Assembly (NCBI GenBank): GCA_017522225.1
Contig: JAFWZR010000015.1
Span: 62,001 to 126,000 of the forward strand
Length of the DNA: 64,000 bases
Direction: 5' to 3'
Source: Clostridia bacterium
GTDB lineage: Bacteria; Bacillota; Clostridia; Oscillospirales; Acutalibacteraceae
Below the pieces are notes generated by a model. That model had not been told where the DNA came from, searched no databases, and saw nothing but the letters and a program-made list of their open reading frames with translations. The position numbers and the translations under genes were made by a program. This document shows, piece after piece, positions 47,446 through 64,000 of the stretch; position 1 is the stretch's first letter; each line of letters begins with the position of its first letter.

Positions 47446-48186
47446 ATGGCTGAAAACAAAAAGAGCACCGGTTCAAGAATCAGAACAATTGAACTTTTCT
47501 ACAGACCTGTGTTTGACATTCATCTTAATATGGCGATTGATTACGAAACTTCAATGCGTATCAATGATAAGATACAGGGCGTAATTCCCGAAAAGGTTTT
47601 TATGCCGGTTGCAGAAAAATCCAACCAGGTTGTTCAGCTCAACCTTTGGGCGGTTGAAGAGGCCTGTGAGGCTATCAAGCGTTGTGCAGAGCGCGAGGTC
47701 GATATGAACAGCGTTATCATCTGGGTTTCGGTTAAATCTCTTACAAAAAAGAATTTTGTAAATCAGGTTAAAAAGATTGTTGATAAATACGAAATATCTC
47801 CCGACAGCTTCTGCTTCAACATTACGGAAAGCATTCTTGAAGCAGTCAAGGATAAGGTCATTGAGACAATCAATGCACTGCGTGAGCTCGGCTTCAGAAT
47901 TTCAATCGACGACCTTGGTCTTGAATATACTTCGCTTTCACATCTTTCACACTACGATGTTGACTACATCGGAATTCACAAGAGCATGATTGAAGATATT
48001 CTTTACAACGAAAAGGTTCAGAACACTCTTCAGGGTATCATCGATTTCTGTAAGAAGATTGATACACAGGTAATTGTTGACGGAATCGAATCGAAAGAGG
48101 AGTTTGACCTGATCAACAAGATGGGTGCTGACCGTTTCAGCGGCCCGTACTTCGGAGAGTTTATTAAAGATAAGCAAATCAATTAA
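47446..48186 (+). CDS. Degenerate EAL-domain protein (probable c-di-GMP sensor or adaptor)
   Basis: A 246-residue stand-alone EAL-fold protein with no membrane segment or GGDEF domain. The fold landmarks are there, but catalytic positions are changed. EAL is YETS (33-36), the (L/F)EITES motif is FNITES with N125 for the metal-binding Glu, and IDDFG is IDDLG (154-158). The KID lysine motif is IGIH with G176 for Lys, and AEGVE is VDGIE with D212 for Glu. Hydrolysis of c-di-GMP is therefore unlikely; ligand binding or protein contact is more plausible. It is the first gene of the surface-assembly locus, 15 bases before a membrane-anchored protein. Confidence 0.8.
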   Translation: MAENKKSTGSRIRTIELFYRPVFDIHLNMAIDYETSMRINDKIQGVIPEKVFMPVAEKSNQVVQLNLWAVEEACEAIKRCAEREVDMNSVIIWVSVKSLTKKNFVNQVKKIVDKYEISPDSFCFNITESILEAVKDKVIETINALRELGFRISIDDLGLEYTSLSHLSHYDVDYIGIHKSMIEDILYNEKVQNTLQGIIDFCKKIDTQVIVDGIESKEEFDLINKMGADRFSGPYFGEFIKDKQIN

Positions 48187-48201
48187 AGGAGGAGGATCAG
48201 C

Positions 48202-49026
48202 TTGGCGAAAAAGAAAAAGAATCAGGCACCTGCAGATGAAGCAATGCAGGCAAACGGCCAGATGGATCGCTACGGTGTAAGAACCGAATCTAAAAAAGTT
48301 AAAAAAAGAGAAGCGTTGATCCGAATTCTTGCAATTATTCTGGTTATACTTTTGCTTTTCCTTTCCATAATGTTCGCTTGCTCGTCTTATGTGAACAAAG
48401 CAGGTGACTTTACGGTTACAATGGATAAAGATGCATTCAACATCGGTATCACTCTTTCGGAAACACCCGGATTTGAAAATCCGACACGTTTCCTTACCGG
48501 TGAAAAATGCGAAAACATGGGCGACTGTACATACGAATGGCTTCCCGATGACATCGACAGCATCGATGGCTCTCACAACCGTTCAAACGGTGAGGAGTTC
48601 CTTGCCTACACGTTCTATGTAAAGAACGCAGGTGAGGTTGACGTCAAGTACAATGCAAAGATTCTTATTGATTCTGTTGCGCTCGGTGCTGACGAAGCAA
48701 TGCGTGTTATGGTCTTCCGTAACGGTGAGCCTACAATTTATGCTAAGCCGCAGAAGGGTACAACGGATAAGCTTGAAGAGAACAAGGACGACAAGGGCAT
48801 TATCCAGTACACGGTTGACAAGAACTTTGTAACAAACACAAAGGTTATGGAAGAGAGCTTTGAGCTTTTCCCCGTCAACTCGGTTGATAAGTATACAGTT
48901 GTTATCTGGCTCGAAGGTTGGGATCCTGAATGTGTTGATAAAATTCTGGATGGCGAAATCAAGATGTCGATGAGCTTTTGGTGCGACCCCTTGGATGACG
49001 GTGACGGATCATCTGAGCAGCAGTAA
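48202..49026 (+). CDS. Membrane-anchored surface protein related to the FAWF subunits
   Basis: A 274-residue protein starting at TTG 48202 after a strong AAAGGAGGAGG. A Lys-rich cytoplasmic tail (1-39) leads to one membrane helix (about 40-60, ending IMFACSSY). The outer domain shares landmarks with the next two proteins: DEAMRVMVF near 173 and YTVVIWLEGWDPEC near the C-terminus, where the others have INRVRVYLWMEG-type strands. It lacks the FAWF cleavage motif, so it may stay anchored and act as a basal or capping component. C60 is not a canonical lipobox. The C-terminus is acidic (DDGDGSSEQQ). Confidence 0.65.
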   Translation: MAKKKKNQAPADEAMQANGQMDRYGVRTESKKVKKREALIRILAIILVILLLFLSIMFACSSYVNKAGDFTVTMDKDAFNIGITLSETPGFENPTRFLTGEKCENMGDCTYEWLPDDIDSIDGSHNRSNGEEFLAYTFYVKNAGEVDVKYNAKILIDSVALGADEAMRVMVFRNGEPTIYAKPQKGTTDKLEENKDDKGIIQYTVDKNFVTNTKVMEESFELFPVNSVDKYTVVIWLEGWDPECVDKILDGEIKMSMSFWCDPLDDGDGSSEQQ

Positions 49027-49136
49027 AATCACATCCCTCTCGGTTTTGTCTTCAGGAGGAAGGCACATTTAAGATATATATTATGGCGGGTTAAACAACC
49101 GTACATAAAATCTAAGAAGGAGGTAAAGAAAAGACA

Positions 49137-50096
49137 ATGTTTAAAAAGAATCAGAAAAACCGCACCTTTATGGCTGCGATTGCGATGCTTCTTCTTTCAG
49201 CTATCGTTATTACAACTGCTTCTTTCGCATGGTTCACATTGGGCAGAAGCGCTATGGCAAGCAACCTTGATCTTAAGGTTACAAAGCAGGGCGAAGGCAT
49301 TCAGATTTCTGCTAATGCTACAACATTCACAGACGAGCTTACATTTGAAGACCTTAACGGTACAGCTACTTCAGGCTTCCAGGCTCCGTCAGAGGATTAT
49401 AACTTCTTCCCCGCAATGATCGAACCTGCATCTTCAAGATTTGCACTCAACAACTTGCCTGCATTCTTTACAGGCGGCGTTGATAAGGGTACAGATACTC
49501 TTGAAAGCTTTGCAACATCATCTGCAGACGGCTTGACAATCTATGGCAAGTCAGGCGCAGAGACACCTGCAGGCTCAAAGAGAGCAGGCTACTACGTTTT
49601 CGACGTATTCGTTGACTACGTTGGTGCTACAGACGGTCAGCTCAAGATCGGCAGCTCAACAATCGAAGTTAAGAATGATGAGGCTGACAATACAACAGCT
49701 ATCGCAGAGGCAGCTAATGCTATGCGTATCGGTTTCGTAAATTGCGGAACTGTAACAAAGGGTGCTACACCCGCAGCGGCTACTTCAGGTTCCGAAGCAG
49801 TCATTTTCGCTACCAACGCTGAAGCACGTAACACCACACCTATCGCAAGTACAGGTGTAAGTGGTGAACTTGCAGAAGGTACATATTCAGTGCCTCAGTC
49901 AGCAGCAGGTGATATCACAGTTGCATCTGCTTACGACTGTGCAGTTGACACAGGTGCTGAAGATGCAGTTATCAACATCACAGAAGGCGTAAACCGTATC
50001 AGAATTTATGTCTGGATGGAAGGCCAGGATGCTAACTGTACTGATGAACTTCAGAGCCAGCTCATTTCTGCAAATCTCGTATTCACATTGGTATAA
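49137..50096 (+). CDS. SipW-dependent secreted subunit 1 (FAWF motif)
   Basis: A 319-residue exported protein. Basic N-terminus, hydrophobic stretch 11-29, then SFAWFTLG at 29-36, the motif typical of SipW-type signal peptides (TasA/CalY-like secretion). The mature part is beta-rich, Thr/Ala/Gly-rich and nearly free of Lys, with two cysteines (NAMRIGFVNCG, and QDANC near the end). A C-terminal VNRIRIYVWMEGQD strand is shared with its neighbours. GGAGG with a long spacer precedes the ATG. It is probably a major extracellular fibre or matrix subunit; Thr and Ala codons are strongly biased to ACA/GCA, as in highly expressed genes here. Confidence 0.75.
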   Translation: MFKKNQKNRTFMAAIAMLLLSAIVITTASFAWFTLGRSAMASNLDLKVTKQGEGIQISANATTFTDELTFEDLNGTATSGFQAPSEDYNFFPAMIEPASSRFALNNLPAFFTGGVDKGTDTLESFATSSADGLTIYGKSGAETPAGSKRAGYYVFDVFVDYVGATDGQLKIGSSTIEVKNDEADNTTAIAEAANAMRIGFVNCGTVTKGATPAAATSGSEAVIFATNAEARNTTPIASTGVSGELAEGTYSVPQSAAGDITVASAYDCAVDTGAEDAVINITEGVNRIRIYVWMEGQDANCTDELQSQLISANLVFTLV

Positions 50097-50319: not shown

Positions 50320-51249
50320 ATGAAAAACACATTAAGAAGACGTACGTTCATTTCAGCTATTGCCATGCTTCTTGTGTCAGCTATTGTGTTGACATCATCA
50401 ACATTTGCATGGTTCTCAATGGCTAAGAGAGTTGAAGTTGAAACAATGGAACTCAACATCACTTCTCCTGACGGTGTTCAGCTTTCAGCTAACACATCAG
50501 CATTTACAACAAAGCTTACAGCAGCAGATCTTAAGGGTGAAGGTGCAGCTCGTTGGAAGGCTTATGAAGGACATAAGAACAACTTCCCCGAACTTCTCTC
50601 TCCCTCATCATCAAACCTTTATGTTGCAGGCAGTTTGCCCGGTTTCCACACAGCATCTATTGACGATGCGGGCAAAATGAAGTCAGTTAAAGTTGTAGAT
50701 GATACAGCAAGCGGTTATGTTGCTTTTGATATTTTTGTAAAGGTATCTGAGGCACAGAAGATTTATTTTGGTGATACAACAGTTATATGCGACGATAACC
50801 CTGATGTTCCTTCAGCAATGCGTGTTGGCGTTGTAGATTGTGGTGTTGTAGCCGCAAAGGCTGAAGCTGCAGCTATTCAGGCAGTTCTTCCCGCAAATGT
50901 TTATAATCATAATGTAGTTATGTATGCTCCCAACGCAACAAATCACACAGATGCATCAGGTTATGCTGACGGTGAAGCAGACGTTCCGGACAGATTCGTT
51001 ACAACAGCGTTTGAAAACGTTACTCCGGGCGGTAAGGGAAACAATATTGCTGAAGCTACTCATCTTACAGCTACAACAAATGCTACTTATGTAACAGACG
51101 AAACCAAGTCAACAGAAGCTTACTTCAATGCAGAAGCAGGTGTTAACCGTGTTCGTGTATACCTTTGGATGGAAGGTAACGACGTTGACTGTGAAAACTC
51201 TGTAGCAGGTGCAACAATCAAGTTTAACCTTGTTCTTACAATTGCATAA
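50320..51249 (+). CDS. SipW-dependent secreted subunit 2 (FAWF motif)
   Basis: A 309-residue paralogue of the preceding subunit. Short basic N-terminus, hydrophobic stretch to residue 28, then TFAWFSMAKR (28-37). The LNITSPDGVQLSANTSAFTTKLTA segment mirrors LKVTKQGEGIQISANATTFTDELTF in subunit 1. AMRVGVVDCGVV and VNRVRVYLWMEGNDVDC near the C-terminus are also shared. About 30 percent of residues look alike by eye. TGGAGG precedes the ATG. It is followed by a strongly structured spacer and then a SipW peptidase, the arrangement seen in tapA-sipW-tasA-like loci. Confidence 0.75.
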   Translation: MKNTLRRRTFISAIAMLLVSAIVLTSSTFAWFSMAKRVEVETMELNITSPDGVQLSANTSAFTTKLTAADLKGEGAARWKAYEGHKNNFPELLSPSSSNLYVAGSLPGFHTASIDDAGKMKSVKVVDDTASGYVAFDIFVKVSEAQKIYFGDTTVICDDNPDVPSAMRVGVVDCGVVAAKAEAAAIQAVLPANVYNHNVVMYAPNATNHTDASGYADGEADVPDRFVTTAFENVTPGGKGNNIAEATHLTATTNATYVTDETKSTEAYFNAEAGVNRVRVYLWMEGNDVDCENSVAGATIKFNLVLTIA

Positions 51250-51442: not shown

Positions 51443-52159
51443 ATGAAAGAAAACGGTAAAAAAATAATCGGAGTTATTTCCGACATACTGCTTATTTTAA
51501 TCCTTGTAATTGCGATTGTTATAACAGTAATGACCTTCACATCAAAAAATTCAGATGCAGGCATCGGTAATGTGTTCGGATATACTCCGTTCTCAATCCA
51601 GTCAGATTCAATGGCTCCGACCTTCAAAAGCGGCGACCTGATTATTTCAAGAGAGGTTAAAAATGTCAACGAGCTTCAGCCCGGTGATGTTATCACCTAC
51701 TCAACAGTCCTTACAGATGAAAACGGCAGAAGTGTAAGAGGCTTCAACACTCACCGTATCATCGCTATCGAGTATAATAAGGACAACACAATCCGTGCCT
51801 TTGCTACAAAAGGTGACGGCATCGATTCAGAGGATAATACCCTTGTTCTTCCCGACGAAGTTATCGCAAAGCAGGTAAATTCGGGTGTGGATGAAAACGG
51901 TAACTATAAGGAAGGTCTTATGATTTCCAACTTCGGTATGGCTCTCAACTTCCTTCAGTCAAGAACGGGATTTATGGTTTGTATTATTATTCCGCTTGCC
52001 CTCTTCTTTATCTGGCAGATTTATAAGCTCATTGCAATGTTTATGGAAGCTAAGGCTCAGGACATTGATGAGGAAACCAAGAAGCGTGCAATTGAGGAAT
52101 ACCTCGCTGAGCAGGCTGCTAAGCAGAAGGCAGAATCAGGCGACGGTCCTACAGAATAA
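51443..52159 (+). CDS. sipW: SipW-type signal peptidase (Ser-His), copy 1
   Basis: A 238-residue archaeal/ER-type signal peptidase. N-terminal membrane helix (about 12-33), catalytic S56 in QSDSMAPTF, and a histidine, H104 in FNTHRI, where bacterial LepB has lysine; then FATKGDG. A second membrane helix (about 170-195) and a charged cytoplasmic tail with coiled-coil character (EAKAQDIDEETKKRAIEEYL) follow. Such enzymes process TasA/CalY-like precursors. Its place after two FAWF proteins makes those the likely substrates. AGGAGTGAGTG precedes the ATG. Confidence 0.88.
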   Translation: MKENGKKIIGVISDILLILILVIAIVITVMTFTSKNSDAGIGNVFGYTPFSIQSDSMAPTFKSGDLIISREVKNVNELQPGDVITYSTVLTDENGRSVRGFNTHRIIAIEYNKDNTIRAFATKGDGIDSEDNTLVLPDEVIAKQVNSGVDENGNYKEGLMISNFGMALNFLQSRTGFMVCIIIPLALFFIWQIYKLIAMFMEAKAQDIDEETKKRAIEEYLAEQAAKQKAESGDGPTE

Positions 52160-52238
52160 ATTTTCATAAATAAATACATTCACTGTACCTATATATAAAC
52201 CTACGGCATATAGTTATTAAGTTAAAGGGTGGCTGAAA

Positions 52239-53801
52239 ATGACAGTAACAAAATTCATTGCAGAATTCTTAAATCAGTTTTTCATAAAAGGTGTCTGGGG
52301 CATCTTCAAGGGTATCGGCCTTGGTATTGCCAATATCTTCAATGTTCCCGAGTATATTGCAATCTTCAAGTCCTGGTCAGGTGATTTTACTGCAGTTGAC
52401 TGGATTCTTGCGATTCTTGCAGTTGTTGCTACGGTTGCAGTTCTTGTTGCAGCAGTGATTCTTGTGGTTGTGCTTATCAGAAAGTATATCCGTGTCCGCA
52501 AGACTCTTGTTGACCAGGAAGAGCTTCTTAATGAAGTAGGCAATCTTAACCGCGAAATCATCAAGCTTTCAAACGAGAAGGAAAAAATCCTTGCTATGAA
52601 GGTTTCACAGCTTGGTCTCAAGCCCGGTGAAAGCGCTTACGTTGACACAGCAACAGAAGAGGGCTCAGAGGAAGAGGGCGAGAAGAAGGCTGACGGTGAA
52701 GTTGATAAGACTGCCGACGACTACAGCCGTTTCTACAAGTGTACACAGGTTGACCTTGAGCTTGAGAACTATATTCCTCCCGAGTATAACAACGAAATCA
52801 CACTTCCCGAAATCTGTGATATGTTCCGTAACTTTGCTTGCTCAAGACTCGGTCTTTTCTACGAAATCAAGGTTATCCGCCTTTTCCTTTCAGCATTTGC
52901 ATCAACTCGTCTTATCATCCTTCAGGGTATTTCAGGTACAGGTAAAACTTCACTTGCTTATGCATGGGGTAAGTTCCTTCAGAACGACGTAACAATCGCA
53001 TCTGTTCAGCCGTCATGGCGTGACCGTACTGAAATCTTCGGTTACTTTAACGAATTTACAAAGCGCTTCAACGAAACAGAAGTTCTTAAAAAGATGTACG
53101 AGGCAACATTTAAAGAGGACATCTTCATCACCGTTCTTGACGAGATGAACATCGCCCGTGTTGAGTACTACTTCGCTGAGCTTCTTTCAATCCTCGAAAT
53201 GCCGTCACGTGATGAGTGGGTTGTATCACTCGTTCCCAGCGTATGGCCGACAGACCCGAAGCACGTTATCGACGGTAAGCTCAGACTTCCCGAGAATATG
53301 TGGTATATCGGTACAATCAATAACGACGACTCAACATTCGCCGTTTCCGATAAGGTTTATGACCGTGCTATTCCCATCGACCTTAACAGTAAGGGTAAAT
53401 TCTTTGAAGCACCGTATACAGAAAACCTTACACTCAGCTACAAGCACCTTGAGGCAATGTTCAGAGATTGCCAGACAAAATACAAGGTATCTGATGAAAA
53501 CCTTAAGAAAATCGAAGAACTTGACGACTATGTTATCGAGCATTTTCGTCTTGCTTTCGGTAACCGTATTGTTAAGCAGCTCAAGGAATTCGTTCCTGCT
53601 TATGTCGGCTGCGGCGGTACAGAAATTGACGGTATCGACTTCGTTCTTGCAAAGAAGGTTTTCCGTAAGTTCGAAAGCTTGAACCTTTCTTTCATCCGTG
53701 ACGAAATCGACGGCCTTGTTACATATCTTAACAAGCACTTCGGTAAGGCTAACATGAACGAATGTAAAGAATACCTCCAGCTTCTTAAGAGACTTATGTA
53801 A
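52239..53801 (+). CDS. Membrane-anchored McrB-like AAA+ ATPase
   Basis: A 520-residue AAA+ protein. N-terminal amphipathic region, strong membrane helix (about 55-81), basic stretch, coiled coil (about 88-120), acidic linker (about 138-160), then the AAA+ core. Walker A is GISGTGKT (230-237). VQPSWRDRTEIFGYFN (256-271) is typical of the McrB/dynein-like class. Walker B is ITVLDEMNIARVEYYF (297-312), and sensor 1 with Arg finger is GTINNDDSTFAVSDKVYDRA (358-377). McrB of restriction systems has no membrane anchor. It is followed 45 bases later by a DUF2357/McrC-like gene. It probably works at the inner membrane face as a ring motor. Confidence 0.85.
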   Translation: MTVTKFIAEFLNQFFIKGVWGIFKGIGLGIANIFNVPEYIAIFKSWSGDFTAVDWILAILAVVATVAVLVAAVILVVVLIRKYIRVRKTLVDQEELLNEVGNLNREIIKLSNEKEKILAMKVSQLGLKPGESAYVDTATEEGSEEEGEKKADGEVDKTADDYSRFYKCTQVDLELENYIPPEYNNEITLPEICDMFRNFACSRLGLFYEIKVIRLFLSAFASTRLIILQGISGTGKTSLAYAWGKFLQNDVTIASVQPSWRDRTEIFGYFNEFTKRFNETEVLKKMYEATFKEDIFITVLDEMNIARVEYYFAELLSILEMPSRDEWVVSLVPSVWPTDPKHVIDGKLRLPENMWYIGTINNDDSTFAVSDKVYDRAIPIDLNSKGKFFEAPYTENLTLSYKHLEAMFRDCQTKYKVSDENLKKIEELDDYVIEHFRLAFGNRIVKQLKEFVPAYVGCGGTEIDGIDFVLAKKVFRKFESLNLSFIRDEIDGLVTYLNKHFGKANMNECKEYLQLLKRLM

Positions 53802-53846
53802 TCTTATTTCAAGCAAACTATCAACTCTCAGAAGGGGAAATAATCC

Positions 53847-56042
53847 ATGGAAAAATCTTATCTTGAATTATATCTTGAATATAAGGATTCCATTGCTTCT
53901 CTCACAACGGATAATGTTTTCTATGACGCTATGGAAAACTGCATTGATACCGGTGAGAACAAGTATTCCTTGTTCAACAGATATTTTGAAAAGAAAATCG
54001 ACCTCAGATGGGTTGAGGAAATTGAAGCATGTATCATTCCCCTTGATAACATTATGCGAGTTCCTCGTAAGTTCATCGTTCAGGAAGAGGAAATCGTACC
54101 CATTGAACGTGCAAGAAAGATAACCAACGAGTCTATCCGCCACCTTGCACAGCACACAAATATGATCGCAAAGGTTGAGGGTGACGATGTTACCCCGAAC
54201 CAGATTCTCAATGTTTTCAGAGAAGAAAGCTACGAGGTTTACGAAAACAGATTCGTCTATACACTTATGCAGAACCTCATCCGCTTTATCGATGTCCGTT
54301 ACGATGTTATCTTCAATGTTTCGGATGACGATAATATGGCTTCTCTTAAAATGGAAAGCGACTTCACACGCGGCCGTGAAAAGGTTACATACAAGCTTGA
54401 GGTTTCCGCACAGTCAGGCGGCGGTGAGCTTGACGACACCGCAACAGGTCTTGAGGGCGAAAACGCTTCCGCTTTCCAGAGAATTGAAAGAATCAAGAAG
54501 ATTATCAACGAATATGCACACTCTGCGTTTATGAAAGAGCTGCAGAACTGTGTTCCCGTCCGTCCTCCGATTATGAGAACGAACGCTATTCAGAAAAACC
54601 CGAACTTCAGAGCATGTCTTAAGCTCTGGCAGTTCATTCAGTCATATACTGACCTCGGTTACGAGATTACCGTAAAGGAATCCAACGATATGGTCAGCGA
54701 CGAGTACAGAAATCAGCTTAATCAGATGATGGCGCTCAACTATATGATGCTCAAGGCAAACACCCTTTCCGAGGATGCTGTCGGTAAGCAGAAGCGCCGT
54801 AAGTTAAAGCCGAAGCTTCTTAAGCGTCTGGCAGAGGAGCTTGTACTCGACTACGATATGGAAGATGTCGAAATCCAGCGAGTTTTTGTTGACGAAATCA
54901 AGCGAGTCAGCAAAAAGAAGATGGAAGGCGAAAAGAAGATTCAGGAAGCTATCCAGCGTGCTCTTGATTCTGAAAATGCCCGTAAAAAGGCAATTGAAGA
55001 TAAGATTAAGGCGAAAATCGCTCACGAAAAAGAGATGGAGCGTCGCCGCATAGCTCGAGAAAAAGAGAAAGAGCGTCTCGCAAAGCAGAAGGAAAAAGAA
55101 CGCATTGCAAGAGAAAAGGCACGCGAAAAGGCACGCAAGGAAAAAGAACTTGCACTTGCAAAGGAGCGTGCACGCAAGGAGAGAGAAAAGGCTCGTCTTG
55201 CAAGAGAGAAGGAGAAGGAGCGCATCCGTCTCGAGAAAGAGAAGGAAAAGGCAAGACTTCTCAAGGAAAAGGAGAGAGCAGAAAAGCTCAAGGCTCAGGA
55301 AGAAGCACGCATTGCAAGAGAAAAGCAGCGTGAAGCTGACCGCAAAGCCCGTGAGGAAGCAAAGAAGCAGGCTCTCATTGAAAAAGAAAAAGCAGCCAAG
55401 GCTAAGGCCCGTGAGAAAGAGCGTATTGCAAAAGAGCTTGCTCTTCAGAAGCAGCGCGAAAAGGAACGTGCAGCAAAGCAGCGTGAAAAAGAGCGCATAG
55501 CTAAAGAGAAAGCAGCTCAGGCTGAAAAAGAAAAGTTAGCCCGCGAAAAGGCTAAGGAAAAGGAAAGAGCAGCCAAGGCTCTTGCTGACGAAAAGGCAAA
55601 AGCAAAGGCGCAGGCAGAAAAGCTCAGGGAAAAGGAACGCGCAGCAAAGCAGAAGGCAGCTCAGGCTGAAAAAGAAAAGCTTGCCCGCGAAAAGGCTAAG
55701 GAAAAAGAAAGAGCAGCCAAGGCTCTTGCTGATGAAAAGGCAAAAGCAAAGGCGCAGGCAGAAAAGCTCAGGGAAAAGGAACGCGCAGCAAAGCAGAAGG
55801 CAGCTCAAGCTGAAAAAGAAAAGCTTGCCCGCGAAAAAGCTAAAGAAAAAGAACGCCTTGCCCGTGAAAAAATCAAGGAGCAGGAGCGAGTTGCCCGTGA
55901 AAAGGCAAAAGAGAAAGAGCGTGTAGCCCGTGAAAAGGCAAGAGCCAAGGCAAAGGAGCAGGAGCGTATCGCCCGCGAGAAGGCTAAGGCAAAGGAAAAG
56001 GCTCTTAAAGAAAAAGCAAAGAAATCAGCAGACGCTGAATAA
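53847..56042 (+). CDS. DUF2357/McrC-like protein with long charged helical tail, no nuclease
   Basis: A 731-residue protein. The first 350 residues look like the DUF2357 domain that partners McrB-type ATPases: YEVYENRFVYTLMQNLIRF (129-147) and IMRTNAIQKNPNFRACLKLW (242-261) are the best-conserved-looking parts. I see no PD-(D/E)xK nuclease motif. From about residue 355 to 728 the sequence is almost only Lys, Glu, Arg and Ala in KEKERLAREK-type patterns. That predicts a stable single alpha-helix or coiled coil more than 50 nm long. It contains two exact-length 48-residue tandem repeats. No signal peptide or membrane helix, so cytoplasmic with the ATPase. Confidence 0.7.
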   Translation: MEKSYLELYLEYKDSIASLTTDNVFYDAMENCIDTGENKYSLFNRYFEKKIDLRWVEEIEACIIPLDNIMRVPRKFIVQEEEIVPIERARKITNESIRHLAQHTNMIAKVEGDDVTPNQILNVFREESYEVYENRFVYTLMQNLIRFIDVRYDVIFNVSDDDNMASLKMESDFTRGREKVTYKLEVSAQSGGGELDDTATGLEGENASAFQRIERIKKIINEYAHSAFMKELQNCVPVRPPIMRTNAIQKNPNFRACLKLWQFIQSYTDLGYEITVKESNDMVSDEYRNQLNQMMALNYMMLKANTLSEDAVGKQKRRKLKPKLLKRLAEELVLDYDMEDVEIQRVFVDEIKRVSKKKMEGEKKIQEAIQRALDSENARKKAIEDKIKAKIAHEKEMERRRIAREKEKERLAKQKEKERIAREKAREKARKEKELALAKERARKEREKARLAREKEKERIRLEKEKEKARLLKEKERAEKLKAQEEARIAREKQREADRKAREEAKKQALIEKEKAAKAKAREKERIAKELALQKQREKERAAKQREKERIAKEKAAQAEKEKLAREKAKEKERAAKALADEKAKAKAQAEKLREKERAAKQKAAQAEKEKLAREKAKEKERAAKALADEKAKAKAQAEKLREKERAAKQKAAQAEKEKLAREKAKEKERLAREKIKEQERVAREKAKEKERVAREKARAKAKEQERIAREKAKAKEKALKEKAKKSADAE
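55512..55840 (+). repeat. 144-base tandem repeats inside the charged-tail gene
   Basis: Two full units (55512-55655 and 55656-55799) differ at only a few silent or near-silent positions. A third partial unit starts at 55800 and diverges after about 40 bases. Each encodes 48 residues beginning AAQAEKEKLAREKAKEKERA. The near-identity suggests recent duplication and length variation between strains. Confidence 0.9.
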
Positions 56043-56081
56043 TCAAAAATTACCGTCTTAACGGATTTTTCGGAGGAAATT

Positions 56082-59000
56082 ATGCAGAAAAGGAGATTTG
56101 AAAAGGTTGCGGTTGTGCTCCTCAGCATTGCAATGCTGTTGACATCAACCGGAATAGTTTCAGCACTGGCAGTCAATGTCAGTGAGTCTTCCGCTGCGCC
56201 CGAAAATTCTTCCGCATCAGTTTCAACCTCTGTTTCGTCTGCAACAACATCAACATCTGCTTCAACATCATCAACAGTCACTCAGGAGGGAGGTTCAATC
56301 ACCTCCTCAACGGTAACTGAAGAGGGTGGTGCAGTAATTGTCGATAACGGTGACGGAACAAAGGAAAATCCGTATAAGATTTCAACTCCCGAGGACTTCC
56401 TCGCAATCGGCAGCAAGGTAAATGACACATCAAGTGCAGACAAGTATTTTGTGCTTACAAATGATATCGACCTTTCAGGAGTAACAGCAAAGGATTTCGC
56501 AAACGGCTCACTTGTCGGTGCTGATAAGACTCTCGGTGCAACTGCTCCGAATGTATTCATCGTGCTTGACGGTAACGGATATGCTCTTAAGGGACTCAAC
56601 GTTGAGTTCACAAAGGGTACTGAGGCATCTGTTTTCGGCTCAGTCAATGCTAAGTCACAGATTAAGAACATCAGAATTGACCGTCCTGTTATCAAGTCAA
56701 CGGCTGACGAAATGTCACGCCTTGCAATTGTGGCAGCACAGAACAACGGTACAATTACAGGTGTCGAGATCACATATCCCGTACTCACAGCCGAGAAGGC
56801 AGACCTTACTGCTTTCGCAGTTGCTGAAAACATCGGTACTCTTTCAGAGATCTATGTAAGAGGCTCACATACCAACATCAGCGCCGCAACAGCAGACAAT
56901 CATACCATATCATCTGTCGGTACAGTCGGTGCGGTCGTCGGTCTTAACCACGGTACGGTTACAAATTCTTCGGCAATCAATATCGGTATGTTTATCCCCG
57001 AGACAGAAGCACAGGTTATCTACGGCGGTATCGCAGGTGCAAACTCAGGCTCTGTTCTCAACAGCGTTTCTACAGGTAATGTAACGGGCGGCAAGTCAGC
57101 CGATGCTGTCGGCGGTATCGTCGGTAAGGCAGTGGCACCCGTTGGCGGTGAGAAGGCAACTTCAACTCTTACCAACAACTACACACTTGTTGCAATTTCA
57201 AAATCAGTTTACGGCTGCGGAGTTATCGGCTCTGCAGGAACTGAGGATATGATCAAGGATTGCTTCTGGTCAAGCGCAGTCAGCGGCAAGGATGTTATGG
57301 CAACTGACTTCGGTGCAGGTGCGGATGAGCTTGTTAACCGCGGCTTCATCATCATCCCCGAGGGAAAGAAGGCAACATTCAGCACATCAGATATCAATGC
57401 AACCATATTCGGCAAGGCAAGTGCAGAGCTTGACGGTGCAATTTCAGTCAAGGGCGAGGGCGTCAAGGCTGAGGTTGAAGACGGCAAGGCAGTAATCACT
57501 GCAGAAACAGCAGGTAAGGTTGCTTATGTAACATACACTGCAAAGCTTATGCTTCCCGCAAACGCAGGTGCATCAAAGGCGGGCGCAGCACTCAAGCAGT
57601 ATCAGCGTGTTTATATTCTCACAGCTGCTGCAGATTCAAAGGGTAACGGCACAAAGGCTGATCCGTTTGTAATCAGAACAGCAGGCGATTTCGCAATGTA
57701 CAATTATGCTCCGACAATGAACGCAGTTCTCGGTGCAGATATCAGAGTTTCCTCAACTGTTCCCGCAATCAAGGGCACATTTGACGGTAACGGATGCACA
57801 ATCAGCACATCCAAGCCGATCGTTTCCAATGTTTACGGAACGGTCCGTGATGTAAATGTAAATGTTACGGCAGACATTTCTTCAGCAGTTCTCGGCAACG
57901 CAATTGGTGCAACAGTCAGCGGTGTTGCGGTTACAATGGCTGAGAGTGTTAAGCTCAATGCTCAGGCAAACAACAGAGGTATCCTCTTTAACAGAATAGG
58001 CGGTCAGAGTGTAATTGATGACTGTCACGCACAGGGCTGTGTTCTCGTCGGTGCAGATAAGCTTTCCGCAATCGGCGGATTTGCAGGTCTTGTAAACGGC
58101 AAGGCAAAGCTTACCAACAGCGGTGCAGCTGCAGATATCAGCGAGGGTGAGGGCTTCACAGCTGAAAAGACGGCAGGCTTCATCGGCAGCGTAACAGCAG
58201 AGGATGTAACGGTTACAAACTGTTATGTCGGTGGTGAAAATCTTGCAGGTGACATCGGCTTTATTGCAGATAAGCCCGCAAAGATTACACTTTCTGATAA
58301 CTATATGGCAGAGGCGATGTCTTCGGCAGATAAGGCTGAATTCAAGACCTGGTCATTCGATGGCGGTAATGTCGGCTTCTTCACAGGCAACGGCGGTGCA
58401 TTCACGGCAGCACTTCCGTCAATCAAGGCATTCTCTTCATCAGATGCTGACGATTATGAAATAATCACAGATAATTCAAAGATTGTTTCATCTGTAAGCG
58501 TTTCGGGCGGTAAGCTCACACTTAATGTTGAACGCGCAAAGGGTGTTGTTACTCTCAAGGCTCTTCCTGTCAGCGTAGTTAATAAGCGAACAGGTCTTTG
58601 CATAACAATCAATGTCTCCAACGGACTTGAAAAGGATGCAAACGGCAGATATATAATTTCAACAGCATACGACCTCGCATATCTGAGCGAAAACATTGCA
58701 GAGCTCAGCAACGCAAGCTTCGTAATGACAGCAGATGTTGATATGTCCGTGCTCAGCGGTTTTGCTCCCATCGGCACAACGGATGTTGCCTTCAGCGGAA
58801 CATTCGACGGTAACGGCAAGGCTGTCAAGAACCTTACAATTGATTCAGCTGCTAAGGTCGGTCTCTTTGCGGTGCTCAATTCAGCAACCGTCAAGAACCT
58901 TAAGCTCACAAACGCAAGTATTACTTCAACAGGCGGTTACGCTGCTGTACTTGCGGGTCAGGTTACAGGCAACACAATCATCAGCGATATCACTGTTGAC

Positions 59001-62000
59001 GGTGCAAAGGTTGAATCACGCGACCTTTATGCAGGTGTGCTTATCGGCGCGGTTGACAGCCAGGATGCAAAAGTATCAATCACAGACATTGCACTCAATA
59101 ACACATCAATCAACTCCGAGTCAAACTATGTCGGTGCAGTTGCAGGCCGTATCAACGGTAAGGCAACGGTTATCGGTGTAAGCGTTGATTCTCTTAAGGC
59201 AAACGGTGCTGCTTATGTTGCAGGTGCAGTCGGTCTTGCAATCGGTGAGGTAACACTTGAGACAGTCGCAGTCAACGGTGCAACTCTCCGCGGTGTATCC
59301 GAGATTTCGGGTATTGCAAGCGGTAACGGTAATGTTACTATAAGATCTGCCAAGGTAACAAAGGCTGATATTGCAACACTTGCAATCACATCGGCAAACA
59401 CAGCAGGCGGTATTGCTGCAGTCTTCGGCTCAGCTATCGAAGGTGTAAGTGTTGAAAACTCAACCGTTACTGCAGGTGTTGCAGGCGGTATCGTTGGCAA
59501 GACAGCTGAGGATTGCGTGCTTACAATCAAAAATGCAGAGGTTTACTCTTCAAAGATAAATTCACAGGATGCAAACACAGTTGCAGCAGGTATTCTCGGT
59601 GTTCACAATGTCAGAGGAACAGCTTCGGTTGAGGCAGTGCTTGTTGATGAAAATACTGTAATCAGCGGTGCAGCGGTCAGCGCAGGTCTTGTGGGCGACT
59701 GCTCAGGTGCAGAAAGCATCCTTAAGGTAACAGATGCAAAAGCTCTTGCAACCGTAAACGGCAGTGCTAACGCTAACGCAATTGCGGCGGCAGGTGCACT
59801 CGGCAGAATCGGTACATCGGCTATCAATAATGTAAGCCTTGAAGCACTCAAGGTTGGCGGAACAGTCAACGGTGCAGGTGCAGTCGGCGGTATCGTCGGC
59901 CTTATCAAGGATAATAAGGGTAACAAGTCTGACCGTACGGTTATTGCAGACAGCGTTGTATTTGCACAGGTTGATGCTTCATCTGCTGTTTCGGCAGGAA
60001 TGATCATCGGTGCGGTTGACGGTAAGGTCTTTGACTCAGACCTTGCAGCCCTCGCTGTAAGAGGTGTTGTTACAACAACATATTACGGTGTCGGTGCTTA
60101 TCCGGAAAACACTCTTACTTCAGGCTATACAGATATGAACGAGGGTATCCTGCTTTCAGTTGATACACTCAACACAACAGACGAAACAACAGTTGAGCTG
60201 TTCGGTCTTCCGAATGAAGACGGCTATACATTTGATGAACAGTCAGGCTGGGCTTCAGAGTCTGCAGACAGAGTTCAGGTTGTTTCTTCAACTGAGAAGA
60301 CGCTTGTCCTCAAGGCAGAGCATCGCGGTCAGGTCAAGCTTGTTGCATACTATGTTCTCGACAGTGACGAGCTGGTACGCATCCCCGTAAGCGTTGAAAT
60401 CAATGCAGATGTTTACGAGCCTCTTAACGGCAGCGGTACACAGTCCGATCCGTATCTCGTAAGCAACGCCTATGAGCTTGAGTCTGTTTCACAGTACGCT
60501 GACAAGGGCGCACACTTCGTGCTTACCGAGGATATTGTTCTTACTGATGCTGATTATGACTTCGGTGGAGCATTCTATAATCTCGGCAACGGTGTTGTAT
60601 CAATCGGCAGTGCAGATAAGCCGTTCAACGGTGTCTTCACAGGTCTTTATAACGGTAAGGTACATTCAATTTCAGGACTTAAGATGTCCGGCACAACCTT
60701 CGGCGGTCTGTTCGCAGTAACCGACGGTGCAACGGTAAGCGACCTTATCCTGAACGGTGCAGAAATTTCTGCAACTGTAAACGCAGGTATTCTTTCGGCC
60801 AGAGCAACAGACTCTGTATTCAGAAACATCGTTATAAACAATTCTTCTGTTGAGGCAACAGGCATGGGCGGAGCAGTCGGTGGTGTTGTCGGTGTTGCAC
60901 AGTCAACAACGGTTGAAAATACAACTCTTGAAAATGTAAGTGTAAGCACAACGGCAGAAGGAACAGGCGTAACTGCTGAGGTTGCAGGCGGAGTTGCAGG
61001 TACATTCAGCGGAACGGTCAAGAATGTCGTTCTTTCAGCTGTAAAGGTAACTGCTGACACAACCGGCGCAGGTGCAATCGGTGTTGCTCAGAGCGGAACA
61101 TACATCTCCGCAACCGACATCGACGCACAGGTCAAGGCCGAAACTGCAGCAGGTGTTATCGGCGAGGCAAAGGATTCAATGTACATCAGCGTTGACGGAG
61201 TTTCCGTAAAGGGCAAGGTCAACGGTGCAGAGATTTCTGCAGGTGTTATTGCGAAGATGTCCTCTGCTGACGAAGAAAACACATTCGATAAGCTCAAGAA
61301 ATCACTTATCAGCAACACAGTTATCACAACAAAGCTTGCAGGTGACGGTGTCAAGGCAATTGCAATCGGTGATATTTCCGAAAAGCTTGCAGTTGATAAG
61401 GAGAATACAAACGCAAATGTATTTGAGAATGTTTACTACTCATCGTACCAGAACAACTTCGGTGCATTCGGTGCAGAGCAGTTCAACGCATATCAGAATG
61501 CTGAGTATGTGATAAACGACCTCAGCGATGCAAAATACATTGCAGACGGCAAGGCTTATGCCTTTGTAAAGCTTGGTACAGAATTTACCGTTCTTGCTGA
61601 TGACAGCATCGTCATAGACGGTATCAGCGGAAGCTATAAGTCATTCACAGTTACAGGAAAGCAGTTCACCCTTGCAAATGTTACTTCAACAGTCAAGGGA
61701 CTTGTTGAGTACGATTCACAGAACAGTGCAGTAAGACTGACAGAGATTCCGTCTTCACCTGCAAAGCTCGTGTTCATTTACAACGATGGCCTCGAAATTG
61801 CGATTGACATTTCTGCAGGCAATGTTGAAACAGACGAAAACGAGGTTATCGTTAATATCAATGTAGTCAATGCTTCGGCAGGTAAGGCTATCTCCGATAA
61901 GCTTGTCGGCGTAATGCTCAAGACAAAGGCAGACGGAGCTGTCAAGGCATCAGACTTCTTCACAAAGGCAGATTCACAGCCGACTTCAATCGGTCTTGAC

Positions 62001-62231
62001 GAAATTGAAAACGGCAGCTTCTATGTGGATATGCAGCTTCCTGAGGGATACACATTCGCTCTGAATGCTACGGATGAGAACACAGAAGAGCTGGAGACTG
62101 AGTCAGCAGGCAATGAGGGCATCCTTGTTAATGCGGGCGAGTCAAAGAATATTACACTCACCGTAACAATTGAAGACGAAACCGATACCCCGTGGGGTCT
62201 CAGAAGTCTCTGGACGGTAATCGGCAAATAA
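56082..62231 (+). CDS. Giant secreted surface protein with GLUG-type beta-helix modules
   Basis: A 2049-residue exported protein. Classical signal peptide (basic start, hydrophobic 9-22, likely cut after SALA at 30), then a Ser/Thr-rich stalk (about 33-85). At least four modules begin with a G(D/N)GT..PY/PF-type strand, a (T/L)NDIDLS-like line and FDGNG: near residues 90, 520, 850 and 1450. Each is followed by long runs of short beta-helix repeats rich in GAVGGIVG, INNVSL and SGVAVT patterns, as in GLUG-motif adhesins. A mixed domain closes the protein (about 1870-2049). There is no LPxTG, choline-binding, SLH or dockerin motif, so its attachment is unclear. GGAGG precedes the ATG. Confidence 0.85.
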   Translation: MQKRRFEKVAVVLLSIAMLLTSTGIVSALAVNVSESSAAPENSSASVSTSVSSATTSTSASTSSTVTQEGGSITSSTVTEEGGAVIVDNGDGTKENPYKISTPEDFLAIGSKVNDTSSADKYFVLTNDIDLSGVTAKDFANGSLVGADKTLGATAPNVFIVLDGNGYALKGLNVEFTKGTEASVFGSVNAKSQIKNIRIDRPVIKSTADEMSRLAIVAAQNNGTITGVEITYPVLTAEKADLTAFAVAENIGTLSEIYVRGSHTNISAATADNHTISSVGTVGAVVGLNHGTVTNSSAINIGMFIPETEAQVIYGGIAGANSGSVLNSVSTGNVTGGKSADAVGGIVGKAVAPVGGEKATSTLTNNYTLVAISKSVYGCGVIGSAGTEDMIKDCFWSSAVSGKDVMATDFGAGADELVNRGFIIIPEGKKATFSTSDINATIFGKASAELDGAISVKGEGVKAEVEDGKAVITAETAGKVAYVTYTAKLMLPANAGASKAGAALKQYQRVYILTAAADSKGNGTKADPFVIRTAGDFAMYNYAPTMNAVLGADIRVSSTVPAIKGTFDGNGCTISTSKPIVSNVYGTVRDVNVNVTADISSAVLGNAIGATVSGVAVTMAESVKLNAQANNRGILFNRIGGQSVIDDCHAQGCVLVGADKLSAIGGFAGLVNGKAKLTNSGAAADISEGEGFTAEKTAGFIGSVTAEDVTVTNCYVGGENLAGDIGFIADKPAKITLSDNYMAEAMSSADKAEFKTWSFDGGNVGFFTGNGGAFTAALPSIKAFSSSDADDYEIITDNSKIVSSVSVSGGKLTLNVERAKGVVTLKALPVSVVNKRTGLCITINVSNGLEKDANGRYIISTAYDLAYLSENIAELSNASFVMTADVDMSVLSGFAPIGTTDVAFSGTFDGNGKAVKNLTIDSAAKVGLFAVLNSATVKNLKLTNASITSTGGYAAVLAGQVTGNTIISDITVDGAKVESRDLYAGVLIGAVDSQDAKVSITDIALNNTSINSESNYVGAVAGRINGKATVIGVSVDSLKANGAAYVAGAVGLAIGEVTLETVAVNGATLRGVSEISGIASGNGNVTIRSAKVTKADIATLAITSANTAGGIAAVFGSAIEGVSVENSTVTAGVAGGIVGKTAEDCVLTIKNAEVYSSKINSQDANTVAAGILGVHNVRGTASVEAVLVDENTVISGAAVSAGLVGDCSGAESILKVTDAKALATVNGSANANAIAAAGALGRIGTSAINNVSLEALKVGGTVNGAGAVGGIVGLIKDNKGNKSDRTVIADSVVFAQVDASSAVSAGMIIGAVDGKVFDSDLAALAVRGVVTTTYYGVGAYPENTLTSGYTDMNEGILLSVDTLNTTDETTVELFGLPNEDGYTFDEQSGWASESADRVQVVSSTEKTLVLKAEHRGQVKLVAYYVLDSDELVRIPVSVEINADVYEPLNGSGTQSDPYLVSNAYELESVSQYADKGAHFVLTEDIVLTDADYDFGGAFYNLGNGVVSIGSADKPFNGVFTGLYNGKVHSISGLKMSGTTFGGLFAVTDGATVSDLILNGAEISATVNAGILSARATDSVFRNIVINNSSVEATGMGGAVGGVVGVAQSTTVENTTLENVSVSTTAEGTGVTAEVAGGVAGTFSGTVKNVVLSAVKVTADTTGAGAIGVAQSGTYISATDIDAQVKAETAAGVIGEAKDSMYISVDGVSVKGKVNGAEISAGVIAKMSSADEENTFDKLKKSLISNTVITTKLAGDGVKAIAIGDISEKLAVDKENTNANVFENVYYSSYQNNFGAFGAEQFNAYQNAEYVINDLSDAKYIADGKAYAFVKLGTEFTVLADDSIVIDGISGSYKSFTVTGKQFTLANVTSTVKGLVEYDSQNSAVRLTEIPSSPAKLVFIYNDGLEIAIDISAGNVETDENEVIVNINVVNASAGKAISDKLVGVMLKTKADGAVKASDFFTKADSQPTSIGLDEIENGSFYVDMQLPEGYTFALNATDENTEELETESAGNEGILVNAGESKNITLTVTIEDETDTPWGLRSLWTVIGK

Positions 62232-62259
62232 TTTTACAGAAAGGGGCAGTGCTACAGTT

Positions 62260-62889
62260 ATGAAAAAGTTTCAGTTTTACAAAAACATAATATTGGTTGT
62301 GGCATCTGCCCTTACTCTTGTTGCAGTTACGTTCGCATGGTTCAGCTCAAGTAGTGACGCGACATTCGATCCCATCGCAGCTACCATTGAAGGTGACCCG
62401 ATCAAGGTTGCTTTTTATCAGGCCGATGCTTTCGATGCATATCAACCGCTTGTGGGTGATATTGAGCTTACAGAGTTTGTTCCCGGTAATTTCAACAAGT
62501 ATAAATTTGAAATCACGACCAAAACGGCTGATAAGCTGAAGCTCGGCTTCAGGATAGAAAATCTGCCGACAGATATACCGCAGGATCTTAAGGATTCTGT
62601 ATGCATAAAGTACACTGTCTACAGTTGCACCAAGACTACAGCAGGTGACGGTACTGCGGTATACACTGAAAGTGAAGTGATTGCTGAATCTCTCGATTAT
62701 GTTTCGCTTACTGATCTGATAGACGGAACAATTTTCAGTGCCCTTTCTCTTTCAAATTATCAGTCATCTTCTGAAGACAGATTTGTAATTTATTATGAAA
62801 TCGGTCTTGCTGAAGACAGTCCGTCAACAATCAGCGGTCTTGAGTCTTCACTCGGTGATGTCAAGATCAGTGCACAGCGAGCAGAGTGA
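62260..62889 (+). CDS. SipW-dependent secreted subunit 3 (FAWF motif)
   Basis: A 209-residue exported protein with FAWFSSSSDA at 25-34 after a hydrophobic N-terminus. The mature domain is a beta-sandwich-like sequence (IKVAFYQADAF, FVPGNFNKYKFEITTKTADKLKLGFRIENLP, RFVIYYEIGL) that resembles TasA/CalY-type subunits more than the two larger FAWF proteins do. It is directly followed by two SipW-like peptidases, the first overlapping its end. Possibly a minor or tip subunit. Confidence 0.72.
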   Translation: MKKFQFYKNIILVVASALTLVAVTFAWFSSSSDATFDPIAATIEGDPIKVAFYQADAFDAYQPLVGDIELTEFVPGNFNKYKFEITTKTADKLKLGFRIENLPTDIPQDLKDSVCIKYTVYSCTKTTAGDGTAVYTESEVIAESLDYVSLTDLIDGTIFSALSLSNYQSSSEDRFVIYYEIGLAEDSPSTISGLESSLGDVKISAQRAE

Positions 62890-62891
62890 TT

Positions 62892-63488
62892 ATGAAAAAG
62901 GCTAAGAAGATTTTCAGCCGCGTGATGTCGGCAATCTCCGTTGTTATTTTTCTGTTCGGACTGTTTGTATTTGTTTCTGTTCTCAATGCATCCGCAGGTA
63001 AGGTGCCGAGTGTTCTCGGCTTCAGCGTGTTGCAGGTAAGCACGGGCAGTATGGAACCCGAACTGATGACAGGCAGCATCGTTGTTGTTAAAAAAACTGA
63101 TGCACAGAAGCTGAAGGTCGGTGACATCATCAGCTTCTACTCAACGGATGTTAATATTCTGGGCAAGGTAAATACACACCGAATCGAAAAAATCGAGTAT
63201 GAATCGGGCACGTCTCATCTTCCGGTTTTCACCACCAAGGGTGACGCGAATGACGATGTCGACAGGGCAAAGGTTCATTCGATGAATGTTGTCGGTAAGG
63301 TCGTGTATGATCTCGGAACGGTCAGCGGTTCTGTTATCAGCGTTTTTCAGAATCCGAATGTTGTTTTCTTTGTGATTGTTCTTCCGCTGATTTTTATCAC
63401 CTTCGGCGAAGCGATTAATCTTGCAACGCTGATTGCAAAAAGTAAGTACGATAAAGAGGAAGATGAAAATGCAGACGCAGAAGAATAA
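62892..63488 (+). CDS. sipW: SipW-type signal peptidase (Ser-His), copy 2
   Basis: A 198-residue ER/archaeal-type peptidase. N-terminal helix (about 12-32), catalytic S53 in VSTGSMEPEL, H96 in VNTHRIEKIE, FTTKGDAND, and a C-terminal membrane helix (about 158-180) followed by an acidic tail. ATG 62892 lies 2 bases after the preceding stop; an in-frame GTG two codons earlier is less likely. Its 3' end overlaps the next gene by 20 bases. It is clearly diverged from copy 1, so different substrates are plausible. Confidence 0.87.
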   Translation: MKKAKKIFSRVMSAISVVIFLFGLFVFVSVLNASAGKVPSVLGFSVLQVSTGSMEPELMTGSIVVVKKTDAQKLKVGDIISFYSTDVNILGKVNTHRIEKIEYESGTSHLPVFTTKGDANDDVDRAKVHSMNVVGKVVYDLGTVSGSVISVFQNPNVVFFVIVLPLIFITFGEAINLATLIAKSKYDKEEDENADAEE

Positions 63489-63975
63489 AATCAGCATTCT
63501 GTTGACCTCTTTAGTTATTTTTATTTCAGTTCTCGCTGTCGGTTTTGTTTTTGCTCCGTCCGTTATGGGACTCAGGGCATACTCGATCGAAACAGGCAGT
63601 ATGGCAAACACAATTCCTGAGGGCAGTATGGTTTATGTCCGCCCTTATTTAAATTTTGAGGACTACGGAATTTACGATGTTGTTACATTTACTGATCCCG
63701 TAACCGAAAAAAGCTTTACACACAGAATTATCGGAATCGATTCTTCAAAGCAGGAGTTTCATACCAAGGGCGACGCGAATAAGGAGCCTGATCTTGAGCC
63801 TACACCGTTCACCATGGCGGTCGGCAAGGTTGAATTTTCAGTACCGCTTCTCGGCTATGTGGCTTCGTTTCTTAAAAACACAGTCGTCAAAATTGCGATT
63901 GGAGTAATTTACATCGCATGGGCGGCAATTGAGGCAGAACTATTTTTCGCAGAAAGGAAGAAGAAATATGATTAA
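63469..63975 (+). CDS. sipW: SipW-type signal peptidase (Ser-His), copy 3
   Basis: A 168-residue peptidase with N-terminal helix (about 9-28), S44 in IETGSMANTI, H85 in SFTHRIIGI, FHTKGDANKE and a C-terminal helix (about 138-158). I use ATG 63469, which has GAGGAAGATG upstream at proper spacing; ATG 63463 is too close to that site. It is the shortest of the three and lacks a long tail. Overlaps with both neighbours indicate one transcript. Confidence 0.85.
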   Translation: MQTQKNKISILLTSLVIFISVLAVGFVFAPSVMGLRAYSIETGSMANTIPEGSMVYVRPYLNFEDYGIYDVVTFTDPVTEKSFTHRIIGIDSSKQEFHTKGDANKEPDLEPTPFTMAVGKVEFSVPLLGYVASFLKNTVVKIAIGVIYIAWAAIEAELFFAERKKKYD

Positions 63976-64000
63976 AAGATTAATATTGTTTGTGGCTTCC
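63968..64000 (+). CDS. Start of a further exported protein (runs off window)
   Basis: ATG 63968 overlaps the preceding stop by 8 bases and reads MIKRLILFVAS, a basic start followed by hydrophobic residues, as in signal peptides. It is probably another secreted component of the same locus, but only 11 residues are visible. Confidence 0.5.
   Translation, partial: MIKRLILFVAS

Follow-up and report, generated by a model that had tools for sequence, protein, structure and literature searches.

McrBC-type proteins associated with signal peptidases have been described under the name CoCoPALM, in one paragraph of Bell et al. (2024, PMC11090510). By that account these systems have an McrB-type GTPase whose signature is NxD (not NxxD), often followed by D or E, an FtsB-like transmembrane and coiled-coil domain on the GTPase, signal-peptidase neighbours, and a coiled coil on the McrC homologue. 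In the literature searched, that paper and the preprint PMC10542128, in the parts consulted, alone join McrBC with signal peptidases, and no later work on CoCoPALM was found. In PMC9674648 donor-strand exchange is given as the way TasA fibres assemble; no motor figures in that description, and "ATP" occurs 0 times in the main text. Here we describe a locus in which SipW-type peptidases and an McrBC-type pair occur together, in a 64,000-nucleotide stretch from a Clostridia bacterium (Acutalibacteraceae; contig JAFWZR010000015.1, our G000:C13:62001-126000). This whole stretch is called the window, positions are counted from its first letter, and it belongs to a 1.58-Mb genome bin of 35 contigs that is 69% complete. 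On its plus strand, genes for an McrB-like AAA+ nucleoside triphosphatase (NTPase, 52239..53801) and a DUF2357 (McrC N-terminal-like) partner (53847..56042) stand in one run with SipW-type signal peptidases, AWF (SipW-type) subunits and an uncleaved, single-transmembrane AWF relative that we call ANC1 (48202..49026). We read this locus, with a probability of about one half, as a CoCoPALM-type surface-fibre machine whose membrane motor would build or anchor TasA-like fibres via ANC1.

An earlier note on this DNA had proposed that SipW/AWF subunits and an McrB/DUF2357 pair belong to a single system, and knew of no described system of that kind. On the second point, the pairing of McrBC with signal peptidases has been published as CoCoPALM (PMC11090510), so that "no described system" is wrong; the first is supported by gene neighbourhoods, whose tabulation the note had suggested. 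The outcomes that the note had named as refuting, with homologues of the pair usually among DNA methylases or defence genes, or SipW and the ATPase never together, are not what the loci show. A scan of genome contigs for the NTPase gave 103 relatives, of which the best 80 were used (the patterns derive from the window protein, and distant relatives are under-sampled). A SipW gene lies on the NTPase strand within 2.2 kb (2174 bases or less) in 62 of these 80 loci, which are on different contigs. The 18 loci without SipW comprise 16 from one Bacilli clade and two whose contigs begin 1091 and 239 bases upstream of the NTPase. A tree supports the 16 as a single clade; the 64/16 split was made after the neighbourhoods had been seen, so that the figure of 62/64 outside the clade is partly circular and 62/80 is the plain count. 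In a control set of 34 further McrB-like places (E ≤ 1e-30), drawn from 33 genomes in a 398-genome phylum sample, 0 had SipW (E ≤ 1e-10) within 10 kb, and both members of the present family in that sample (genomes G000 and G082) have SipW within this distance.

The 64 loci outside the Bacilli clade come mostly from Oscillospiraceae/Ruminococcus and other Clostridia, with one Bacilli and one Tenericutes record. A DUF2357 gene is present in 57 of them (in the seven others the contig ends no more than 123 bases past the NTPase), AWF-family proteins in 59 and uncleaved ANC1 in 54, or 57 if the whole ANC1 class, cleaved-type members included, is counted. The DUF2357, AWF-family and ANC1-class matches so counted lie on the NTPase strand. 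The ANC1 class consists of 80 matches, 63 without an AWF-like motif and 17 with one; a stricter regular expression gives 41/64, since it also excludes transmembrane letters such as TWL and AFV. In nine of the ten loci without uncleaved ANC1 the contig reaches no further than 3.2 kb upstream, and the tenth, L098 (L and G numbers are our handles for loci and genomes), has an open reading frame (ORF) of the ANC1 class that lacks the motif at its C-terminus. Going upstream from the NTPase, the first gene with a family label is SipW in 45 of the 62 SipW-bearing loci, with ANC1 and then SipW in 15 more. Eight extra loci, found in Bacilli and in further families of the order, have the same gene set; having been picked because SipW was already on the contig, they illustrate the arrangement and are no test of linkage, and one of them (L180) repeats L056.

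The distribution of these genes across genomes singles out ANC1. Among 148 related genomes, 30 have the NTPase at E 1.3e-153 or better, and four more have weak matches alone. In Fisher tests, which ignore shared ancestry and so inflate p, SipW was found in 30/30 NTPase genomes vs 52/118 others (1.1e-9), or 14/14 vs 51/116 without the window's own genus (2.8e-5), and ANC1 among SipW genomes in 26/30 vs 2/52 (5e-15), or 11/14 vs 1/51 without that genus (5e-9). ANC1 occurs in 28 genomes overall: 26 are among the 30 NTPase carriers and 2 among the other 118. In the latter two (G001 and G046) the contig ends exactly where SipW and the NTPase are expected, and three NTPase genomes without an ANC1 match are 68% complete (G003), 59% complete (G036) or have the NTPase split between contigs (G116). 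ANC1 presence thus tracks the NTPase, whereas SipW presence does not.

The NTPase matches McrB both in NF008457 (2.9e-7, under the cut-off) and among PDB McrB chains (1.8e-6 to 3.9e-6 by sequence search); with a profile, McrB chains (3.3e-8 to 8.5e-8) are the sole PDB matches at E ≤ 0.01. Walker A, Walker B and N-x-D-[DE] motifs are kept in 84/84 homologues; the letters NNDD also fit NxxD and align without gaps to NTAD of E. coli McrB. A strong hydrophobic segment is likewise present in 84/84, with more positive charge behind it (median +5) than ahead of it (median −1), and by the positive-inside rule this charge pattern would place the NTPase domain in the cytoplasm. The N-terminus has a transmembrane segment followed by a charged, coiled-coil-like stretch; FtsB/DivIC was not found among 25 of 43 Pfam families listed for 16 NTPase homologues at E ≤ 0.1. 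The family matches confirm an McrB-type NTPase where the earlier note had placed a membrane McrB-like ATPase.

The partner protein matches DUF2357 (2.8e-10, above the Pfam gathering score) over its residues 1-375; the full-length protein matched no Pfam family. DUF2357 is recognized in 21 of 22 aligned homologues, the window protein included, and no nuclease, PD-(D/E)xK included, is among the 23 Pfam families listed for these 22, most of which had been trimmed to about 360-480 residues, the Bacilli ones being whole. This agrees with the nuclease-free protein that the note had described. Its C-terminal K/E/R repeats read by eye as a coiled coil. The structural model of the protein (predicted local distance difference test score, pLDDT, 77.8; predicted template-modelling score, pTM, 0.51) has as its top-probability Foldseek matches in the PDB 6hz4 chain M (0.80, E 0.057) and 6ut6 chain G (0.77, E 0.23), chains of McrBC complexes that are taken from their lengths to be McrC; a DUF2357 profile against PDB sequences gave nothing useful. 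A near-perfect 144-bp tandem repeat (55503-55853, 95% matches, 2.4 copies) lies in the coiled-coil part of the gene and may allow its length to vary. In GTPase type, signal-peptidase neighbour and the coiled coil on the partner, the window locus agrees with the published account of CoCoPALMs.

Three SipW-type peptidase genes lie inside the window (51443..52159, 62886..63488 and 63463..63975, the last with a likely ATG at 63463). They match NF046067, the Bacillus SipW equivalog, at 7.7e-26, 5.7e-25 and 3.1e-18, all below its 190-bit cut-off, and all exceed the cut-off of TIGR02228 (1.4e-18 for the first, 8.5e-22 for the third); by these sequence matches they are peptidases of the SipW/archaeal signal-peptidase type. 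The first shows Ser (DSM) and His (THR) motifs, and of 100 complete peptidases, 80 have both motifs by simple regular expressions. The AWF motif was read in six proteins of the gene run. Subunits 1 (49137..50096) and 2 (50320..51249) have an N-terminal AWF motif and a family match, and subunit 3 (62260..62889) has a visible FAWF and a TIGR04088 match of just 0.027, under the cut-off. The three peptidases and three FAWF subunits that the note had placed in the window are accordingly present.

ANC1 lacks the AWF site and shares a C-terminal WxEGxDxxC with many AWF subunits (EGxDxxC occurs in 62 of 171 AWF-class matches). It has 22-91 residues before its transmembrane segment, with a middle value of about 45 in 45 ANC1 proteins vs about 10 in 118 AWF proteins (sampled values 4-41). 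A basic juxtamembrane motif, read by eye, is VKT/VRVT-like in many Oscillospiraceae and in three Bacilli sequences and AKRD-like in Ruminococcus. An AlphaFold2 model (pLDDT 81.3) consists of a helix at residues 27-65 plus beta strands, consistent with a cytosolic tail and an extracellular beta domain. Its fold search returned beta-sandwich proteins, including 7ueg, the PapG pilin domain and FimA, at template-modelling scores on the query of 0.23-0.26. 7ueg is an archaeal bundling pilus whose paper is cited in PMC9674648, where some archaeal fibres are described as structurally related to TasA. In locus L057 (2951 onward) ANC1 is a 612-residue ORF, far longer than its relatives, possibly through a fusion or an assembly fault.

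The 16 Bacilli loci without linked SipW have their own order: a protein of 338-367 residues (L100:8913-9986, with equivalents in the 15 others), the NTPase, the DUF2357 gene, and an ORF for an anchored surface protein with Asp-rich repeats, cut short in some of the 16. Two of the upstream proteins, of 357 residues, gave nothing below E 0.02 in Pfam, and a relation to DUF2357 was rejected. They may be related to the product of 324-326 residues whose gene precedes the NTPase in Bacilli loci with linked SipW (L175, L176, L076), with which they are collinear over 275 columns (E 1.5e-4, probability 51%). SipW is encoded elsewhere in the genome in all 16 genomes. In 59 genomes around one Bacilli carrier, the NTPase is present in all of the first 30 listed, as a single copy in 29, and SipW occurs in 32 of 33 NTPase genomes vs 8 of 26 others. 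One genome, G549, has two NTPase copies, one in a SipW-linked locus and one not, and L174 (G549:C47) has a SipW-like domain in a 675-residue ORF.

In a tree of 85 NTPases (69 rows filed as SipW-linked, two of which, L091 and L095, are unseen owing to contig ends) the unlinked form is one side of a branch with support 100/100. Under midpoint rooting this clade is nested beside SipW-linked Bacilli loci (sister relation 81/68), and because it is nested among linked loci, the SipW linkage looks older. Genes of the division/cell-wall cluster (mraZ, rsmH, a penicillin-binding protein (PBP), mraY, ftsW, murG, murB) lie within 9 kb of the pair in 8 of the 16 loci (phmmer, nine queries): L092, L096, L100, L101, L103, L105, L106 and L107, from Bacilli genomes of about 1 Mb. 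NCBIfam names for eight such proteins or their homologues are MraZ, RsmH, PBP/SpoVD-like, MurG, MurB, MraY and FtsW. Such genes flank the pair on both sides in L100, the PBP and ftsW genes of L106 are on the opposite strand, and in a ninth locus, L104, rsmG and a noc/parB gene adjoin the pair. The other seven loci have none of the nine query genes, five of them being contigs shorter than 8 kb. At L092:3-1091, an ORF stretch reads by eye as Hedgehog/intein-like inside a surface or phage-like protein. We suggest, tentatively, that the McrBC motor was recruited as a membrane-anchored envelope machine, which would assemble TasA-like fibres via ANC1 in Clostridia and, in one clade of small-genome Bacilli, would be near-universal, usually single-copy, often beside division/cell-wall genes and paired with a different anchored surface protein.

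For the window locus we propose the following sequence of events. From known TasA/SipW biology, AWF subunits would take the Sec route out of the cell, would be cleaved by the SipW peptidases encoded beside them, and would then join into beta-sandwich, donor-strand fibres. ANC1, having no AWF site, would stay membrane-bound, with its beta domain outside and its tail of 22-91 residues inside, as the base or nucleator of a fibre. Beneath the membrane, the tethered McrB-like NTPase may form a ring, with the DUF2357 protein as its activator in the way McrC is for McrB; for both ring formation and activation the model is E. coli McrBC, on the account given in PMC11090510. This motor would act on the cytosolic ANC1 tail, or on nearby pre-subunits, and so drive initiation, growth or release of fibres, in whichever direction the work is done. 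The tail is the best candidate for contact because ANC1, of the two components whose spread was tested (SipW and ANC1), is the one that tracks the motor. For SipW processing as such the motor would be dispensable, because 52 of 118 genomes have SipW without the NTPase.

Several observations weigh against a fibre motor working through ANC1. SipW without the NTPase is common, as just counted, and G134, a 97% complete NTPase genome, has no ANC1 match, nor any in the 20 kb read there. No SipW or AWF gene lies inside the 16 Bacilli loci, and their anchored protein (A4) was rejected as an ANC1 homologue (hhalign probability 4%, homology not significant). The fold match of ANC1 to pilins is weak, its best E-values going to sugar-enzyme domains of beta-sandwich type; the 50 fold matches listed do not include TasA by name, and a profile search of PDB sequences gave no TasA match for ANC1 (profiles of ANC1 and of the Bacilli anchored protein found nothing useful there). 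The Bacilli loci also invite the idea that the pair is a general membrane or envelope remodelling motor, linked to wall or division, with fibres as one client and the Bacilli form as the core role. The presence of the pair in every one of the first 30 listed relatives, the division genes near half of the loci with rsmG and noc/parB at a ninth, and the constant frame of an upstream 338-367-residue protein and a downstream anchored-surface-protein ORF (16/16) speak for it; the nested position of the unlinked clade makes the fibre link look older, a place beside division genes may be passive, and 7 of 16 loci lack such neighbours. We consider this idea unlikely. That the motor acts on SipW or on pre-subunits, to control their quality or to extract AWF pre-proteins left uncleaved, and not on fibre assembly, is less probable still. 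AAA+ rings often pull proteins out of membranes, and SipW is the usual labelled gene next upstream of the NTPase; against this, it is ANC1, not SipW, that tracks the NTPase.

We regard it as very unlikely that the McrB/DUF2357 pair is an anti-phage module of Type IV restriction-like kind that lies by chance in a surface operon or is displayed from it. The NTPase is homologous to McrB and matches the PADLOC candidate-defence model PDC-M26A (6.5e-36), and CoCoPALMs were described inside a paper on restriction systems (PMC11090510). Against a defence role stand the transmembrane segment of the NTPase, the same-strand linkage of the pair to SipW/AWF, a DUF2357 partner with no nuclease family among those listed for 22 homologues, and the near-universal, mostly single-copy presence in the Bacilli relatives, unlike patchy defence genes. 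When 17 recurrent neighbour clusters (each in 3-14 loci) were compared with PADLOC at 1e-10, 16 had no match; the sole match, of a cluster in 13 loci, was to mad3 over 82 residues and reads as an ordinary ATP-binding cassette (ABC) transporter ATPase. A defence island was rejected, the recurrent neighbours being without defence models apart from this ABC-type match. A broader PADLOC scan took 102 of 187 cluster representatives, 140 of them listed, with Bacilli and some short ones left out, and one protein per cluster, so that recurrence is invisible in it. Of 47 families matched in that scan, the 25 listed had one member each and were mostly UvrD-like helicase models, with single matches also to REase_III, REase_I, RTasHel and mad3.

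The gene run itself starts at 47446 and proceeds on the plus strand to about 67779, past the window end at 64000; the gene after about 67779 is on the opposite strand. Its order is EAL, ANC1, AWF1, AWF2, SipW1, NTPase, DUF2357 protein, a 2049-residue surface protein, AWF3, SipW2, SipW3, AWF4, SipW4, AWF5, AWF6 and two further single-transmembrane proteins, for a total of six AWF subunits and four SipW peptidases. The ORFs named in the earlier note are on the plus strand at the coordinates it gave, and its single run holds from 47446; the run does not stop where the note had it end, continuing with AWF4 to AWF6, SipW4 and a pair of single-transmembrane proteins. AWF4 has only its start inside the window (63968..64000), its ORF running past the edge, beyond which follow, in window-based positions and on the plus strand, SipW4 (~64643-65101, or G000:C13:126643-127101, identified by a SipW match), AWF5 (~65049-65750), AWF6 (~65713-66381) and the single-transmembrane proteins (~66388-67287 and ~67288-67779), these last four as ORFs. 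A sequence scan, which did not delimit transcription units, counted 34 promoter-like sites, near the shuffled mean of 30.0, and 26 terminator-like sites against 18.5.

The 2049-residue surface protein or adhesin (56082..62231) has Peptidase_M26_N (3e-8) as its only Pfam match at E ≤ 0.01, and the GLUG label it had been given finds no support at that threshold; a homologue is present in 21 of the 64 loci outside the Bacilli clade. At the start of the run, the EAL-domain protein (47446..48186, Pfam EAL 1.3e-49) is degenerate, as had been noted. The canonical EAL motif set includes EAL and KID; here DDLG is kept, ETS stands for EAL and DYIGIH occupies the KID position (orthologues were surveyed by regular expression). 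It is the only EAL protein found in its 69% complete genome. GGDEF occurs in 2 of 18 genomes of the genus and in 1 of 16 NTPase carriers (61-97% complete), and with a degenerate EAL protein this leaves the suggested gating by cyclic di-GMP unsupported in this genus. EAL-type proteins are found repeatedly with the motor genes (in 28 of the 64 loci, in 4 of the 8 extra ones, and in L194 and L196) and may have a regulatory role there. Larger EAL proteins of 758-785 residues are found at the motor locus in other families (L179, L181 and L196), L179 and L181 keeping DDFG-type motifs.

The pairing of an McrBC motor with signal peptidases is conserved across distant gut bacteria and, in the literature consulted, has been named in print once and not worked out there. 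If the fibre reading is true, SipW-type fibres would gain their first NTP-driven assembly motor, and the McrBC motor, known from defence, would have been reused for cell-surface building; a dedicated NTPase and a membrane base subunit would change the motor-free picture of TasA fibre assembly. The ANC1/NTPase link offers a concrete, testable contact, and the division-gene form opens the question to tests in gut Bacilli with small genomes.

Among described systems, E. coli McrBC (PDB 6hz4, 6ut6, 7vsr) shares the AAA+ NTPase domain and the DUF2357 partner; it differs in that no nuclease was detected here and in that a transmembrane/coiled-coil N-terminus replaces the DNA-binding domain (PMC11090510). 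CoCoNuT systems belong to the NxD McrB branch, which the letters here would fit as well as NxxD, resemble the locus in long coiled coils and frequent loss of the McrC nuclease, and by the same paper's account have RNase and helicase neighbours where surface proteins and signal peptidases stand here. With tapA-sipW-tasA of Bacillus subtilis (PMC9674648) the locus has in common a SipW peptidase, secreted fibre subunits of beta-sandwich type and an accessory subunit with a presumed anchoring role; that system, as presented there, has three genes with no NTPase or DUF2357 protein, and ANC1 is without a TasA sequence match. CoCoPALM is the closest, sharing the McrB NTPase with a transmembrane and coiled-coil-like domain, the signal-peptidase neighbours and the coiled coil on the McrC homologue, although Pfam did not reproduce an FtsB relationship for the N-terminus among the 25 of 43 families listed. 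To that paragraph-long account (PMC11090510), in which fibre subunits, the SipW/AWF class, ANC1 and the division-gene form do not figure, the present loci add a fibre part (SipW class, AWF subunits, a motor-tracking ANC1) and a form beside division genes, neither of which we found in the literature searched.

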